A stretch of 36,766 bases of DNA from Clostridia bacterium. GTDB taxonomy: Bacteria; Bacillota; Clostridia; Christensenellales; Borkfalkiaceae. The stretch lies in NCBI GenBank assembly GCA_014805025.1, contig JAAUYR010000003.1:1-36766 (forward strand). Direction: 5' to 3'. The position numbers and the translations under genes are program-made. Positions 314-34,665 of the stretch are shown one piece after another. Every line of letters starts with the position of its first letter. The first letter of the stretch is position 1. Below the pieces are notes generated by a model. That model searched no databases. It was not told the DNA's origin and saw nothing but the letters and a program-made list of their open reading frames with translations.

Positions 314-1273
314 TCAATTTCTATTTAAACCGCACATAGCCAGTCGCGCCGCGCCGTATATACCCGCGTCGTTACCGAGCGTTGCGGTAAGAATTTTTAC
401 CGGAGCATAAGCTACGCCCCCGAATATGTTGCGTTTTACGTACTTTCTCAAAGGCTTTAAAAGCGTTTCGCCCTGCGCGCAAACTCCGCCGCCGAGCAAT
501 ACCGCGTCGGGACGGAAAACGTTGCAAACGTTTGTAATGCCCTCGCCGAGATACCGCACGTATTCGTTTACGACTTTTTTAGCCGCTTTGTCGCCCTGTT
601 GCATAGCGTCGAACGGAGTTTTTCCGTCAACGTTATCAATTACACCCCCACATATGTGCCACATAAGGCTTTCGGGGTTCTTTTTCATTGCCGCCTTGGT
701 ACTGTTTATAAGCGCAGTTGCGGATGCATACGCCTCGAAGCAGCCTCTTCTGCCGCAGGTGCACTTTTCGCCCTTCATTCTTATTACCGTATGACCGAGC
801 TCTGCGCCTGCGGAATAACCGCCCTCGTACAGTTTACCGTCTAAAACTATGCCGCCGCCAACGCCCGTACCGAGCGTTATTAAAACAATGCTGTTAAACT
901 TTTTGCCTGCGCCCATATAGCTTTCGCCGAGCGCCGCAGCGTTTGCGTCGTTGGTGATAAATACCGGTATTTGCAGCATATTGCCTATGCAATCGCCTAA
1001 GGGAACGTTTTCCCACTCGATGTTGTTGCTGTAAACTATTATGCCTTTTTTACTGTTTACAGTCCCCGGCGAGCCTATGCCCACCGCTTCAACTGTTACT
1101 CCCGATTTTGCTTCAAGGCTCTTTACGAGCTTTGCCATATCTTCGGCAATTTCTATATAGGGGCGCTCGCTGCCCGTCGGAATTTTATCCTTTATAATAA
1201 GCTGCCCGTCCGCGCTGACTATTCCGCATTTTATATAAGTTCCGCCTAAGTCTATACCTGCATAATATTTCAT
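314..1273 (-). CDS. ROK family sugar kinase (glucokinase-like)
   Basis: GIDLGGTYIKCG phosphate loop, catalytic NDANAAALGE, GTGVGGG, ELGH, Zn motif CTCGRRGCFE all present. Confidence 0.92.
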   Translation of the reverse strand: MKYYAGIDLGGTYIKCGIVSADGQLIIKDKIPTGSERPYIEIAEDMAKLVKSLEAKSGVTVEAVGIGSPGTVNSKKGIIVYSNNIEWENVPLGDCIGNMLQIPVFITNDANAAALGESYMGAGKKFNSIVLITLGTGVGGGIVLDGKLYEGGYSAGAELGHTVIRMKGEKCTCGRRGCFEAYASATALINSTKAAMKKNPESLMWHICGGVIDNVDGKTPFDAMQQGDKAAKKVVNEYVRYLGEGITNVCNVFRPDAVLLGGGVCAQGETLLKPLRKYVKRNIFGGVAYAPVKILTATLGNDAGIYGAARLAMCGLNRN

Positions 1274-27076: not shown

Positions 27077-28582
27077 ATGGCAACGGAAAAATTCAGCTCT
27101 AAAACGGGGTTTATTTTGGCGAGCGTGGGCGCTGCGGTCGGGCTTGGCAACGCGCTGCGCTTCCCCGGTCTTTGCGCAAAGTACGGCGGCGGCACGTACC
27201 TGTTTATCTATATTATCGCGCTTCTCGTCCTCGGCATACCCATGCTTAACGCAGAAATCGCGCTTGGCAGAAAGTTCGGGGGCGGCGCGCCCAAGTGCAT
27301 GGAAAGCCTTGTAAAAGGCGGCGCAAAGCTCGGCTGGGCGGCTTGCCTCAACTCGCTTATAACCGCAATAATTTACGCCGGTCTTGCAGGCTGGATAATT
27401 GCCACGATTGTAAATATAGTTCCGCTGTGCATGGGCTCCGCCGATATGTCCAAAACGGAAATAAGCGGACACTTTTTCAAAAACGTTTTAAACGCCCGTA
27501 ACGACGGCGTTATTTCAAGCATATCCCCCACCGTATGCGCCGGAATTGCCGTAGCTTTCGCGGCGATGTTTTTATGTTTGCGCGGCGGTGCGGACACCCT
27601 TTCAAAGGCTGCGAAATTCACCGTAATTATCCCCGTAGTCCTGCTTGCGTTCATGGCCGGGCGCGGACTTATTTACGAGAACAGCGGCACCGCTTTATCC
27701 GCGCTGTTCACGCCCGATTTTTCAAAACTCGCCTCGCCCGAGCTTTGGCTGAGCGCATTGGGTCAGGTGTTCTTTTCAATGTCCGTAGGGGTCGGAATTA
27801 TGCCGGCATACGGCGCGTACCTGCCCGAGGGCACAAACATATTCAAGTGCAGTCTGATAATTGCCGCGGCGGACTTTGCCGTATCCGTGCTGGCTTCCGT
27901 AGTTCTGTTCACAACTTTGTACGGCTGCGGCTTGCAGGCAGAAATAGGCCAGTCGGGAATAATTACCGCCTTTGCAGTTTACCCCGTTGCAATAACTAAG
28001 CTGTTCGGCGCAACCGCCTGGCTGAACGCCGTTGCCGGAGTACTGTTTTACGCATCGCTTGCAATGATTGCAATTCAGGCGGCAGTATCTATGGCGGAAG
28101 CGTTTTTAGCGCCGCTTAGCGAGAGCTTCGGCATAAAAAAAGCCCGACTTGCGGGCTTAATTTGTATAATTGGTGCAGGAATATGCTTGATTTTCGCCAC
28201 TTCCGCCGCAGTTGTGCTGGTCGACGTTTCCGACAGGTTCGTAAACTTTTACAACGTGCTACTACTCGCCATTGCCGAATCGCTGATACTCGGTTGGAGC
28301 GGCCAAATAAACGGGGTTTGCACCGAAATAAACAGGTTTACCAAAAAGCTGAAAATGCCGGAAAAGCCTTTTAAAATTTCCGTTAAGCTCCTCTGTCCGG
28401 CCGTGCTCATATCGCTGAGCGCGTACGAGGCGGTAAGGCTTATAATAAACGGACTTGACTTCCCCCTGTGGATTCAGGCAGGCTTCGGTTGGGGGCTTAG
28501 TCTTCTTGTTTTTGCTTGTTCTCTTTTAATCGGGAAACTCGCGAAAGCGCGCAGTATACCACGGGCACTAATACGAGCGTAA
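27077..28582 (+). CDS. Neurotransmitter:sodium symporter (SNF/NSS) family transporter
   Basis: KTGFILASVGAAVGLGNALRFPGLCAKYGGGTYLFIYIIALLVLGIPMLNAEIALGRK; start re-set to MATEKF at 27077. Confidence 0.93.
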   Translation: MATEKFSSKTGFILASVGAAVGLGNALRFPGLCAKYGGGTYLFIYIIALLVLGIPMLNAEIALGRKFGGGAPKCMESLVKGGAKLGWAACLNSLITAIIYAGLAGWIIATIVNIVPLCMGSADMSKTEISGHFFKNVLNARNDGVISSISPTVCAGIAVAFAAMFLCLRGGADTLSKAAKFTVIIPVVLLAFMAGRGLIYENSGTALSALFTPDFSKLASPELWLSALGQVFFSMSVGVGIMPAYGAYLPEGTNIFKCSLIIAAADFAVSVLASVVLFTTLYGCGLQAEIGQSGIITAFAVYPVAITKLFGATAWLNAVAGVLFYASLAMIAIQAAVSMAEAFLAPLSESFGIKKARLAGLICIIGAGICLIFATSAAVVLVDVSDRFVNFYNVLLLAIAESLILGWSGQINGVCTEINRFTKKLKMPEKPFKISVKLLCPAVLISLSAYEAVRLIINGLDFPLWIQAGFGWGLSLLVFACSLLIGKLAKARSIPRALIRA

Positions 28583-31500
28583 CGAGCGTACCTATAATAA
28601 GTCCGCCGATAACCACAATGCCGAGCGGCTGCATAAGCTCGCTGCCCTGACCTACGCCTATTGCAAGCGGAATAAGCGCCAAAACTGTTGTAAGCGTAGT
28701 CATAAGTATGGGGCGCAAACGAACCTTGCAGGCCTCTACCACCGCCGTAAACCGTTCCATACCGCTTTCTTCAAGCTGTTTGATTTTTTCCAGCATTACT
28801 ATTGCGTTATTGACCACGACGCCCATAAGCATTATAAGGCCTATAAACGATACTACGTTCAGACTTGTGCCGGTTATAACCAGCGCTATAAATCCGCCCG
28901 TGAAGCTGAACGGAATACTCGCCATAACTATAACGGGTTTTAAGAACGAGCCGAACTGCACCGCCATTACCGCGTACAGCAAAAAGAATGAAATTACAAG
29001 CGCCACGGCAAGCCCCTCGAACGCGTCGGTAAGATAGCTTGAAACTCCGCTGCTTTCAAAAGTATAGCCCTCGTACTCGGCCTTTTCGGCAAGCACCTCC
29101 GCGGCAATTTTTTGCAGCTTTTTGCTTGCAGAACCTGTATCCAGCGTGGGGTGCGAAGCCGATACGGAAATCATCTGTTTTCCGTTGGAACGGCGGATAC
29201 ACGCCTCCGTTTCTATACGCGTTACCCCACATATATCCTTTAATTTAACGGCTTTCATACCGCCGTCGTTCTCCGCGCCGACAACAAAGTTTTCCAAATC
29301 GGCAACGCTTTTTACAGCGTTTTCGTCAAACTTTACGTTAAGATTATAGCTCTCTCCGTCAATGGTAACCGAGCAGGCAGTGTACGAAGCTATGCCTATT
29401 CTCAGCGTTAAAACGGTCGTCTGATAATCGATGCCAAGCTCCGCCATTTTGCGGCGGTCGAACTTCAAATCGTATTCCACGGCGCTGTCGGTAGCGCTGT
29501 TTTTTACGTCCTTAAATCCGTTTTCTTCAAGGCCGAGGCGCGAGCAGATTTCGTCCGCAATTACTTTGAGAGTTTCGCCGTCCTCGCCAACTATCGTAAC
29601 CGACATATCGTCCGAGCCGGACATAAGCGAAGCCACAACGCCGTCTATCTCTTTTACCGTAACGGCGCCGACTGGCTTGAAATTTTGGCTTTCGGAAAGC
29701 TCGCGTATCTTATTTACAACCTTTGAAGTGCCGCGGTTTGTAGAAAGCTGTACCGTTATTATACCCGTATCGGTAAGCGCCAAAAGTCCGTTTTTACCGA
29801 CGCTGACCGAAACGTATTCCACGTTATCTATTTCGCTTTGAATTGCGCTTGCAAACTTAAATACGTCGGCCTGCACCTCGTCCAAATCGGAAACCGAGCC
29901 GTAGGACATATTTACTTCTATCTGTCCCTTGTCTATCGAGGGCAAGAACTCCGTGCCCGTCAAAAACAGCAGGCCCACGCTTCCGCCGAAGATAACTACC
30001 GCGCAAATTATCGTAATAAGCTTTTTGCCGAGCACCTTGGGCAATATCTTGCCGTACGCGTTTTGCACGGCGTTCATAACGTTATCCTGCTTGACTTTGC
30101 GCACAAAGCCCTTGAATTTACTTTCGGGTTTTTGCGTTATTTCGGGGATATTCGGGGGGCAATCCTTCTTTTTGAACCTTCCGCCTTTAAGCAGCGACCT
30201 TTCGCCGCTGAACAGCGAGTACAGCGTAGGGATAACGGTAACGGCAACCAAAAGCGAGAACGTAAGCGAGAATATAACCGCCCAGCTTAAATCGGTAAAG
30301 ATTTCGCCCGTAAGACCGCCGGAAAAGATTATGGGTATGAACACGCAAACGGTCGTAAGCGTAGAGCCGAACAGCGCGCCACCGACTTCGGTTGTGCCGT
30401 CCACGGCCGCCTCGTAAGCCGTTTTATCCATCTCCCTGTGCTTTGTAATGCTCTCGATAACAACAATGCTGTTATCAACCAGCATACCTATGCCAACGGC
30501 CAGACCGCCGAGGGAAACCATATTCAGCGTTATGCCCATAAGCGAAAGGCAAATCAAAGCTGCAAGCACCGAAAGCGGCATTGTTACCGCGATTATCAGC
30601 GAAGAGCGGACTTTTTTAAGGAATACGAAGATTATCAGTATTGCCAGAACGCCGCCTATAAGCATACTGACTAAAACGTTTGAAATGCTGTCGGAAATGA
30701 ACTCCGACTGGTCGTCCAAAAGCATTATTTTCGCGCCGTAGCTCTGTGACGAGCCGAGGTACTCTGTATAAGTCTTTTTTACCGCGTCCACCACCGCCGA
30801 AGCGTTTGCGCCGTTGGACTTGTAAACTTCTATAATAGTGCCCTTTATGACCTTTGCGCCGCCGTCGCCGAAGTAAACGTACGACGAAAAGCTGTCTTCA
30901 AGCTTGACCGTGGCAATTTCCGCAACGCTTGTAACAAGCGTTTCCCCTGAAAAATCGGTTTTTAAAATAAAGTCGAAAAGCGGCTCGGAAAGCTTAAACT
31001 CGAACACTCCTTCAAGCTTTAAATCGCGGTAAAGCGCATTGAACTCCGCCGCCGTAATTTCCTCGCCAAGCTCTTCCCTGCGCTCCTCCAATAGCGACAT
31101 ATTATACTTATAATTATCGCTGCGCACAAACGCCATAAACGTGGGCGAGGCTATTATAGGGTGCTCCGACGAAAGCTCCGTTCCGGTAAACAGCAACGCG
31201 CACTCCGCGTCGGTAGGAACGTACCCGTCGCCCTCGTCGCGCTTTTTATCGGCAATGCTTCTGAGCCCCGTTGCCGAGGTCTTTTTTACGAAGTCCGCAT
31301 CTGCCGAAATTTCCTCGTCGGAACGGGGCGAGCCGTCCTCGTTTTTGTCGCAGACCCCCATATATCTTGCAAGTTCGATATACGCGGCGTTATCGTCGCC
31401 GTTAAAATCGTAATCGTCGTCGTAACGTTTTCTGAAATCGATAAGGTCGTTCAAGACGCCGTCGCGCACCATTATAAGCATATCCTGCGTAATGGTAAAC

Positions 31501-32537
31501 GGCAGGTCGTACCTATCGTTTATTGTTTCGGCAAGGTCTTTAAGCTCCTCGTCCGTTCTGTCCTCTACAACTCTTTGTAAGCGCTTGTTAATGTCTTTAA
31601 GTTCGTCGGCGGTAAAACCGCTTACAAGGTTTATGTAAGTTTTATATTCGGATAGCTCGTCAAGCTCGTCGGCGGACATATTGCCGAGGTCGTTCAACAC
31701 GGCTAACACTCCGCCGTCCAAATCGGTTTCAAGCTCGCGCAAGTCTTGTGCCGACTGCTCCTCATACATTTGGGCAAGCTGTTTTACCGAAGTAAGTAAG
31801 CCTACTATCGCAGGCGGAAGAGTTACGGGCATTTTGTTTATATCGTCAACGCTCGTTACGTCGGAGTTATTGCGTATCTGCATGTCGCCGCCGTCCTGAG
31901 TAATGTTGCCGAGCGGTATATCCAGCGCGCCGTAAGAAAATGCCTGGACTATTAACGGGCTTATAAGCTCCAAGCCCTCGAACGGGCTGATAACGTACGA
32001 AGTTTCCGCGCCGCCCTTAATTTCTACGCTTTCGACACCGTCAATGCCGGAAAGCTGCGCGGCAAGCTCCTTTGCCGCTTTGTAAGCGTTTAAAAGGTTT
32101 CCGTCCTCTTCGGTAACGGAGAGCACCGCAAGCGCTTCGGCGTTCAAATCGATATCGTAGACGGAAGTCGTAACCCCGTCGGGCAGGTCTACCGAAGATA
32201 GCTTTTCCTGAATATCGCTCTTCTTATCGGTTGTGTCCGTGCCGTAATCGAAGGAAAGCAGAACGGCCGAAACGTTATCGTAAGAATAGCTGTCAAAGCC
32301 GGTAAGTCCGCCTATTGAAGAAAGGTTTTCTTCAAGCTTTTCGGTTACGTCCTTTTCAACCGAGGTTGCGTTGGCGCCGGGATAGATTACCTGCACGCAG
32401 ACCATGGGCACGTTTATGTCCGGCAACAGGTTTACGGGCATTTTAACCGTTGCGTAAACCCCGAACGCAAGCACGAAAATTACTATTAAAATTATTGCGA
32501 CCGACTGTCGTATTATAAATGAGAAAAACTTTTTCAT
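28497..32537 (-). CDS. RND (AcrB/HAE1-like) efflux permease with large extracytoplasmic insertion
   Basis: N-term VYATVKMPVNLLPDINVPMVCVQVIYPGANATSVEKDV; GGLAVGIGMLVDNSIVVIESI; LMGVVVNNAIVMLEKI; LRPILMTTLTTVLALIPLAIG. Confidence 0.94.
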   Translation of the reverse strand: MKKFFSFIIRQSVAIILIVIFVLAFGVYATVKMPVNLLPDINVPMVCVQVIYPGANATSVEKDVTEKLEENLSSIGGLTGFDSYSYDNVSAVLLSFDYGTDTTDKKSDIQEKLSSVDLPDGVTTSVYDIDLNAEALAVLSVTEEDGNLLNAYKAAKELAAQLSGIDGVESVEIKGGAETSYVISPFEGLELISPLIVQAFSYGALDIPLGNITQDGGDMQIRNNSDVTSVDDINKMPVTLPPAIVGLLTSVKQLAQMYEEQSAQDLRELETDLDGGVLAVLNDLGNMSADELDELSEYKTYINLVSGFTADELKDINKRLQRVVEDRTDEELKDLAETINDRYDLPFTITQDMLIMVRDGVLNDLIDFRKRYDDDYDFNGDDNAAYIELARYMGVCDKNEDGSPRSDEEISADADFVKKTSATGLRSIADKKRDEGDGYVPTDAECALLFTGTELSSEHPIIASPTFMAFVRSDNYKYNMSLLEERREELGEEITAAEFNALYRDLKLEGVFEFKLSEPLFDFILKTDFSGETLVTSVAEIATVKLEDSFSSYVYFGDGGAKVIKGTIIEVYKSNGANASAVVDAVKKTYTEYLGSSQSYGAKIMLLDDQSEFISDSISNVLVSMLIGGVLAILIIFVFLKKVRSSLIIAVTMPLSVLAALICLSLMGITLNMVSLGGLAVGIGMLVDNSIVVIESITKHREMDKTAYEAAVDGTTEVGGALFGSTLTTVCVFIPIIFSGGLTGEIFTDLSWAVIFSLTFSLLVAVTVIPTLYSLFSGERSLLKGGRFKKKDCPPNIPEITQKPESKFKGFVRKVKQDNVMNAVQNAYGKILPKVLGKKLITIICAVVIFGGSVGLLFLTGTEFLPSIDKGQIEVNMSYGSVSDLDEVQADVFKFASAIQSEIDNVEYVSVSVGKNGLLALTDTGIITVQLSTNRGTSKVVNKIRELSESQNFKPVGAVTVKEIDGVVASLMSGSDDMSVTIVGEDGETLKVIADEICSRLGLEENGFKDVKNSATDSAVEYDLKFDRRKMAELGIDYQTTVLTLRIGIASYTACSVTIDGESYNLNVKFDENAVKSVADLENFVVGAENDGGMKAVKLKDICGVTRIETEACIRRSNGKQMISVSASHPTLDTGSASKKLQKIAAEVLAEKAEYEGYTFESSGVSSYLTDAFEGLAVALVISFFLLYAVMAVQFGSFLKPVIVMASIPFSFTGGFIALVITGTSLNVVSFIGLIMLMGVVVNNAIVMLEKIKQLEESGMERFTAVVEACKVRLRPILMTTLTTVLALIPLAIGVGQGSELMQPLGIVVIGGLIIGTLVTLVLVPVVYCALSRVSRLKENKQKQED

Positions 32538-33218: not shown

Positions 33219-34082
33219 TCACTCCATTGCAGCGGCCGCCGCACCCAAGACTGCGGCGCGCGCACCAAGCTTTGCCGAGGCTATCTCCACGGGATAGTTC
33301 CCGTAAACTTCCTTCGTTACCGCCTCTTTCAAAGGCTTTGTAAGCCGCGAGCCCTGCGCTGCCATTTCTCCGCCGATTATAATAAGCTGCGGACGGTACA
33401 GGTTTGCAAGGTTTCCTACTCCGCAGGCAAGGTATTTTAAATATCTTTCCACAACTTCCTTTGCGGTGCGGTCGCTGTCCATATGCCCGAAAGCCGTTTT
33501 TTCGTCGGCGGTTTCGTGGTTACAGCTCTTCCACATCTCCGAGGAAGTGTACTCTTCCATAGCCCACTTGGTACGGGCTTTAAGCGCGCGCGTAGAGCAA
33601 TACACCCCGAAGCATCCGCGCCTGCCGCACTTGCAAAGATTTCCGCCGCGCTCTATTACCATATGCCCGAACGCGACGTCCTCGCTCCCTTTAAAGAGCT
33701 TGCCGCCGTAAACGTATCCGCCGCTCACCTCTTCGCTGAGGTCAAGATAAACGCAGTCTGAATAATCTTTGCCGGCGCCGAACTTAGCCTCGCCCAAGGC
33801 CGAAGCGTTTGCGCCGTGTAATAAGGTTACTTTAACGCCGAGCTTCTTTTCAAGCGCTTTTCCGTCAACCTCGCCCGAGCAGCTTACTCCCACGCCGGAA
33901 ATTTTTGAAAACACGGTCTTTGCGCCCTGAACGAGAATTTCCGAAAGCCTTACAAGGCATTCCGTAATATTTTCGCCGCGGCTTACCGCCAAAGAGTTTT
34001 CCGCAAAAACTTTGCCATTTTCATCAATGATAAGACCCTTCACCTCAGACGTGCCGACGGACAGACCCAAATACAACGACAT
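33219..34082 (-). CDS. ROK-family protein lacking canonical catalytic residues (putative pseudokinase)
   Basis: Zn motif GHMVI...CKCGRRGC retained; catalytic NDAN replaced by HGAN, GTGVGGG by SEEVSGG, DLGGT by SVGTS. Confidence 0.85.
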   Translation of the reverse strand: MSLYLGLSVGTSEVKGLIIDENGKVFAENSLAVSRGENITECLVRLSEILVQGAKTVFSKISGVGVSCSGEVDGKALEKKLGVKVTLLHGANASALGEAKFGAGKDYSDCVYLDLSEEVSGGYVYGGKLFKGSEDVAFGHMVIERGGNLCKCGRRGCFGVYCSTRALKARTKWAMEEYTSSEMWKSCNHETADEKTAFGHMDSDRTAKEVVERYLKYLACGVGNLANLYRPQLIIIGGEMAAQGSRLTKPLKEAVTKEVYGNYPVEIASAKLGARAAVLGAAAAAME

Positions 34083-34114: not shown

Positions 34115-34143
34115 ATTATATAACTTATAATCAGTTTCGTCAA
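34115..34143 (-). promoter_or_regulatory. Promoter for ROK-like/rex transcription unit
   Basis: Minus strand TTGACG (34138..34143) N17 TATAAT (34115..34120); AGGGG SD before ATG at 34082. Confidence 0.8.
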
Positions 34144-34145
34144 GT

Positions 34146-34175
34146 TAAAAAATGCGGCGCTCTGACGAGCGCCGC
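34146..34175 (-). terminator. Intrinsic terminator of nrdD-nrdG-dut unit
   Basis: Minus strand GCGGCGCTC-gtca-GAGCGCCGC followed by ATTTTTT. Confidence 0.9.
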
Positions 34176-34185
34176 CTGAATTCTA

Positions 34186-34629
34186 TTATTTACTGCCCGT
34201 CGAGCCGAAGCCGCCCTCGCCGCGCACCGTTTTCGAAAGCCCGTCCGTTTCAACGAACTCCGCCGTAATATACGGAGTAATTACAAGCTGAGCTACGCGC
34301 TCGCCGACGGCCACCGTCTGAGGGATATCGGAATGGTTATGAAGCGCAACCTTAACCTCGCCGCGGTAATCGCAGTCCACGACCCCGACTTTGTTTGCGG
34401 GGGCTAGCCCTTTTTTGGTTGCAAGACCGCTTCTTGCATAGATAAGTCCGGCATATCCCAGGGGCAATTCAAGCGCAAGCCCCGTGGGCACTAATACCGT
34501 GGTATGCGGCGCAACGGTAATTTCCGCGTCTATACAAGCGTACAAATCCGCGCCTGCGGCGTACTCACTACCGTATACGGGAATAACTGCTTTTTCGTTG
34601 AGCTTTTTAATTGCAACTTGCATTTTCAT
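34186..34629 (-). CDS. dut: dUTP diphosphatase
   Basis: YAAGADLYAC, GLIYARSGLATKKGL, NKVGVVDCDYRGEVKVALHN, ERVAQLVITPY, RGEGGFGSTG; start chosen at MKMQVAIKKL. Confidence 0.95.
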   Translation of the reverse strand: MKMQVAIKKLNEKAVIPVYGSEYAAGADLYACIDAEITVAPHTTVLVPTGLALELPLGYAGLIYARSGLATKKGLAPANKVGVVDCDYRGEVKVALHNHSDIPQTVAVGERVAQLVITPYITAEFVETDGLSKTVRGEGGFGSTGSK

Positions 34630-34665
34630 CGGTAAAATCCTCGATAAACGCGGCATATATGGGGG

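Follow-up and report, generated by a model that had tools for sequence, protein, structure and literature searches.

The window under study, a stretch of 36,766 nucleotides from a Clostridia bacterium (contig JAAUYR010000003.1), encodes upstream of the redox-sensing repressor gene rex a ROK-family protein that has lost the motifs of a sugar kinase and is retained by purifying selection, which acts most strongly on the lobe that carries the Zn site and the helical dimerisation region. Our overall reading, held with reasonable though not full confidence, is that this protein is a lineage-specific, non-catalytic ROK scaffold kept after the loss of catalysis. Its orthology with canonical kinases, the loss shared with a sister species (G007), the intact frames, the purifying selection, the bias of conservation towards the C-lobe and the predicted fold are directly supported. 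The two most likely partners of such a scaffold would be Rex and the remaining active ROK of the same genome, each of which we put forward tentatively.

The reading frame, located in the minus strand, starts with ATG and is devoid of internal stops; that the frame is intact had been stated in a preliminary description of this DNA. Its product matches the Pfam ROK profile (PF00480) with 143 bits for a cut-off of 22.9, versus 260 bits for the canonical ROK encoded in the same window. The ROK domain begins at residue 4, and a domain search evidenced no N-terminal helix-turn-helix domain such as defines the ROK repressors. Alignment bore out all the motif losses that had been listed (DLGGT, NDANAAALGE, GTGVGGG, ELGH and GCFE), and also the retention of the Zn site, of which the GH and CxCGxxGC ligands are present (Table 1). 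Indeed, the DxGxT phosphate motif of ROK sugar kinases is absent from the window protein, and the catalytic Asp of the active-site loop is missing in both species, the pair ND being replaced by HG in the window protein and by KK in that of G007, while the sugar-binding motif ExGH reads AFGH and QFGH, respectively. Within the Zn motif (GHx9-11CxCGxxGCxE) the histidine and three cysteines remain, the terminal Glu being a Gly in the window protein and a Glu in that of G007; the canonical counterpart of this segment is CTCGRRGCFE. A further feature, absent from the preliminary description, is the deletion of the sugar-binding loop between GxGxxG and NDAN, a stretch which canonical orthologues fill with ..VVFAGNLKLKNYPL..; the deletion makes the window protein shorter by about 25 residues, and the same loop is mostly deleted in the G007 protein. 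From these changes it appears that catalytic activity was lost.

Table 1. Positions in the window of the degenerate ROK gene, its altered and retained motifs, and the genes and signals considered with it.
Feature	Position	Strand	Basis
Canonical ROK, sole other full ROK of the window genome, candidate replacement kinase	314..1273	-	ROK profile, motifs
rex, redox-sensing repressor, 203 aa	32597..33208	-	Profile match
Catalytically degenerate ROK protein (pseudokinase), 287 aa	33219..34082	-	ORF, profile match, alignment, predicted structure
Zn knuckle with helical insert, used for dimerisation by ROK kinases; best conserved part	33393..33665	-	Identity to G007
Residues 150-159, CKCGRRGCFG; Zn cysteines stay, sugar-binding Glu gone (present in G007)	33606..33635	-	Alignment
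Residues 137-140, AFGH, replacing ExGH; sugar-binding Glu gone, Zn-ligand His stays	33663..33674	-	Alignment
Residues 116-122, SEEVSGG, replacing GTGVGGG (second ATP loop)	33717..33737	-	Alignment
Residues 89-98, HGANASALGE, replacing NDANAAALGE; Asn and catalytic Asp gone	33789..33818	-	Alignment
Junction of residues 73/74, site of the deleted sugar-binding loop	33861..33866	-	Alignment with canonical orthologues
Residues 8-12, SVGTS, replacing the ATP-phosphate motif DxGGT	34047..34061	-	Alignment
Promoter TTGACG-N17-TATAAT upstream of ROK-rex	34115..34143	-	Sequence match 11/12
Strong intrinsic terminator separating dut from the ROK promoter	34154..34175	-	Sequence
dut, conserved upstream neighbour	34186..34656	-	Synteny

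We have compared 108 ROK proteins, of which 99 belong to the genus and the other 9 to further families of its order. All the motifs tested are canonical in 104 of them, and contig ends truncate two more; the last two, encoded by the window genome and by G007 (contig CATLBN010000019.1), are degenerate. The G007 record was the sole return of a search of genome contigs. Among the ROKs adjacent to rex, every complete one is canonical save those of the two species. In the ROK tree the rex-linked clade contains both degenerate proteins as sisters (support 100/100), their stem measuring 0.62 changes per site, and the rex tree likewise pairs the two species (SH-aLRT 92). In the latter tree a very long branch (3.5 changes per site) leads to the Rex of another genome (G033), which is possibly divergent or affected by a frame problem. 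As the other complete ROKs found upstream of rex are canonical, the window protein is an orthologue having lost catalysis and not an odd paralogue; a distant paralogue is ruled out by synteny and by the tree. The two degenerate proteins are 60% identical for an identity of 81% between their Rex proteins, versus 78% and 81%, and 83% and 84%, in two canonical pairs. They have 20 derived residues in common, and 37 of 147 sites invariant in canonical proteins are changed in both, for an expectation of 17. At the lost sites the two species mostly carry different letters (T/E and S/C in DxGGT, HG/KK for ND, A/Q for the Glu of ExGH), which is expected if constraint on the catalytic positions ended before the split. 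A sequencing or assembly error is ruled out, as a second species known from another assembly has the same losses and open frames. The preliminary description had taken canonical orthologues, were they to be found, as a sign of such an error or of recent decay: they do exist, but that implication does not stand, since the sister species shares the loss. The same locus offers about 60 orthologues that look active, and it is the comparison with these that makes the branch of the loss, the retained parts and a possible replacement readable from sequence.

The arrangement with rex is older than the loss. A survey of ROK-rex pairs and of residue conservation, as proposed in the preliminary description, was carried out on 93 congeneric genomes, with ROK proteins in 88 and rex in 65; it evidences a genus-wide pairing, the substitutions being restricted to the window species and G007. 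In 64 of the 65 rex-bearing genomes, which have 65 such loci between them, rex is immediately preceded by ROK, with a median gap of 11 bp, the usual gene order being nrdD-nrdG-dut-ROK-rex, often with an RND transporter gene next. In the window an RND/AcrB-type gene (28497-32537, 1346 aa) is also found downstream of rex; a long stretch of the first half of its product falls outside the best ACR_tran match, which starts at residue 565. The window rex encodes a genuine Rex (NCBIfam, 237 bits), and both the 10 bp spacing from the ROK stop and the dedicated promoter that had been noted are confirmed, the latter being of sigma-70 type. Promoters resembling it precede ROK in 45 of the 65 loci, G007 included, and from this gene layout ROK and rex would be co-transcribed. 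A loose match to a candidate Rex operator is present 5' of ROK in 21 of the 64 regions scanned, versus 13% of mononucleotide shuffles, and these matches are mostly weak and AT-rich. None of 24 order-level rex loci outside the genus has the pairing in the flanking sequence retrieved, which extends to at most 1.5 kb. Also, rex was not found in 28 of the 93 genomes, some of them complete-looking, which corresponds to a repeated loss of the redox regulator, and in 15 genomes without detected rex the ROK gene still adjoins dut. Taken together, the surveyed loci and these dut-linked genes indicate that the pairing is confined to the genus and that ROK does not depend on rex. Within the genus the pairing is ancestral and involves canonical, active-looking kinases.

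These results bear directly on a first possible role for the scaffold, in which the dead kinase would bind Rex and tune its binding to DNA or NADH, just as MecR2, a ROK-fold antirepressor homologous to the sugar repressor XylR from which it derives, binds MecI directly (PMC3406092). The possibility is a tentative one. In both carriers rex is kept, adjoining and behind a shared promoter, the fold matches that of MecR2 (4ija) and the C-lobe surface is conserved; however, the adjacency predates the loss and is found with canonical kinases, ROK persists without rex in the dut-linked loci, and the rate of rex is unaltered in the degenerate lineage. Clearly, adjacency to rex is by itself no evidence for a Rex partnership, as it is ancestral with canonical kinases and ROK stays beside dut when rex is gone. 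A more specific proposal, by analogy with MecR2, would make the dead ROK an antirepressor or co-regulator of Rex: a sugar kinase scaffold, whose gene has long adjoined that of the NADH sensor, would have been recruited to bind Rex and to couple another signal to redox control. We regard this as rather unlikely. Were ROK to act on Rex, redox control in anaerobes would gain a new input, in parallel to MecR2.

In the history that we propose, the ancestor would have been a glucokinase-like ROK hexokinase with a housekeeping role, whose gene had long stood next to rex behind a promoter of its own. Catalysis would have been lost a single time, before the window species and G007 diverged from their common ancestor, sugar phosphorylation would probably have been handed to the remaining canonical ROK, and the old protein would then have been kept by purifying selection as a folded, Zn-containing and probably dimeric scaffold, presumably acting by binding another protein via its C-lobe. 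Each degenerate genome has exactly one other full ROK gene, which is canonical, and the Glk-type glucokinase (PF02685) is absent from both, although, at a completeness of 85%, the window MAG may fail to show a further kinase; the degenerate form is known from these two species, both represented by MAGs. The presence of one other canonical ROK in each, with no Glk-type glucokinase, suggests that hexose phosphorylation was handed over. The loss coincides with a second ROK in both carriers (2/2), which, as it corresponds to a single evolutionary event, is no more than suggestive. These second ROKs are not the same in the two species and belong to different clades. That of the window has as neighbours an alpha-mannosidase locus and, at 1277-2188, the gene for a mannose-6-phosphate isomerase; since G095 is the one other genome of the genus to have this ROK, and since it groups with ROKs of other families of the order, it may have been acquired. 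The surrounding region (314-21840) has the composition of a locus for the use of alpha-mannosides, with the ROK kinase, the isomerase, GH38, GH125, GH76 and a rhamnosidase-like GH, as well as a solute-binding protein and two ABC permeases.

A second role, to which we give the same tentative standing as to the binding of Rex, is that of a regulatory subunit forming heterodimers with the remaining active ROK kinase. ROK kinases dimerise via a helical cluster of the C-lobe (PMC2742894, PMC5458393, PMC10465942), a region which coincides with the best conserved part of the degenerate pair, and one active-looking ROK is available in each carrier. Against this, the canonical ROKs of the two species fall in different clades and are only about 42-47% identical to the pseudokinase. 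Such a pairing would constitute a pseudokinase subunit in bacterial sugar metabolism.

The retention of the protein was analysed with a branch codon model written for this analysis (codon ML). The canonical background branches have an omega of 0.10 and the whole degenerate lineage 0.24, omega=1 being rejected (2dlnL 77). With the stem set apart, the two tips have an omega of 0.17 (support range about 0.10 to 0.28; omega=1 again rejected, 2dlnL 77), a value which becomes 0.18-0.19 under two other topologies. The stem omega is above background and depends on topology (1.3, 0.32 and 0.45), and is not taken as evidence of positive selection; a relaxed phase on the stem is likely, and the concern for decay is greatest for the N-lobe. 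At the tips the C part has an omega of 0.125, indistinguishable from background, and the first part 0.23; in agreement, window and G007 are 74% identical in the Zn knuckle and helical insert versus 42% in the N-lobe. For rex the omega is unchanged in the degenerate lineage (0.106 versus 0.090). Under neutrality about 8 stops are expected on the window tip and 15 on that of G007, the probability of an open frame surviving being 4e-4 and 3e-7, respectively. The tip omega together with these probabilities indicates that the gene is selected as a protein and not just as an open leader of rex. The pseudokinase, rather than decay, put forward in the preliminary description is thus upheld by a loss common to two species, two open frames and the post-split omega. 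Lost catalytic residues, open frames and purifying selection are indeed the marks of a pseudoenzyme.

A slow decay would nonetheless account for part of these observations: the gene would have become redundant once a second ROK was gained, its frame persisting only as the leader of the rex transcript, in which a stop would hurt rex translation. Both carriers do possess a second ROK, the stem omega is raised (0.3 to 1.3), the identity of the N-lobe is low, and a gap to rex of 1-10 bp makes coupling possible. However, a constraint on stops alone predicts an omega near 1, contrary to what was measured at the tips and in the C part, and the two proteins have in common the Zn ligands and the derived residues, with a codon usage resembling that of neighbouring genes and a fold predicted intact. 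We consider decay improbable.

In respect to structure, the AlphaFold models have a pLDDT of 95.1 for the window protein and 93.2 for that of G007, values which support compatibility with the fold rather than prove it, as the alignments contained canonical relatives. Foldseek relates the window model to ROK glucokinases (prob 1.00; best match glucokinase 2qm1, TM 0.89) and also to ROK repressors and MecR2; together with the profile match, this places it in the ROK superfamily in fold and ancestry. Dimerisation of the window protein would be expected. Five residues of ROK proteins contact the sugar, namely Asn, Asp, Glu, His and Glu (PMC2742894, PMC5458393); four of the five are gone in the window protein, the His alone being left, and this is also a Zn ligand. 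Contrary to this, the ROK repressor 1z05, in which the ATP loop is changed, retains NDxxA, ELGH and GCLE. The sugar-sensing role that had been suggested is hence not sustained, and sensing through the old site is unlikely. A protein that still binds hexose without phosphorylating it, as in ROK repressors, would fit the kept fold and Zn site, and hexokinase sensors with catalysis-independent signalling exist elsewhere (PMC8256278), but the loss of Asn, Asp, both Glu and the sugar loop, the different letters at these sites in the two species and the lack of a DNA-binding domain make it very improbable. A kinase of altered mechanism or substrate, with which the fold, Zn site and purifying selection at the tips are compatible, is just as hard to credit, given the loss of the catalytic Asp, DxGxT and GTGxGGG alike and the drift of the catalytic positions to different residues in the two species. 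Most simply, the window protein would be a protein-binding scaffold, folded, carrying Zn and with its C-lobe preserved, and a new, non-enzymatic job for the retained dead ROK is probable.

In the literature searched we have found no report of a ROK pseudokinase devoid of a DNA-binding domain, and nothing direct on ROK pseudokinases or on a link between ROK and rex; the window protein is a probable pseudoenzyme of known fold, specific to its lineage. With the ROK sugar kinases (TIGR00744; E. faecalis glucokinase 2qm1, S. griseus GlkA 3vgk) it shares the fold, the HC3 Zn site and the C-lobe helices, and the canonical members encoded at this locus are its orthologues, from which it differs in having lost DxGxT, the catalytic Asp, GTGxGGG, the Glu of ExGH and the sugar loop. 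With the ROK repressors (Mlc, NagC, Lmo0178, 1z05) it has in common a ROK fold without a working ATP site, but these have a helix-turn-helix domain, and 1z05 the sugar ligands, both missing in the window protein. The closest precedent for a binding to Rex is MecR2, a ROK-fold protein recruited to interact with the repressor encoded by a neighbouring gene: however, MecR2 derives from a DNA-binding repressor and not from a kinase, its partner is MecI and not Rex, and its interaction has been shown, whereas that of the window protein with Rex would be a proposal.
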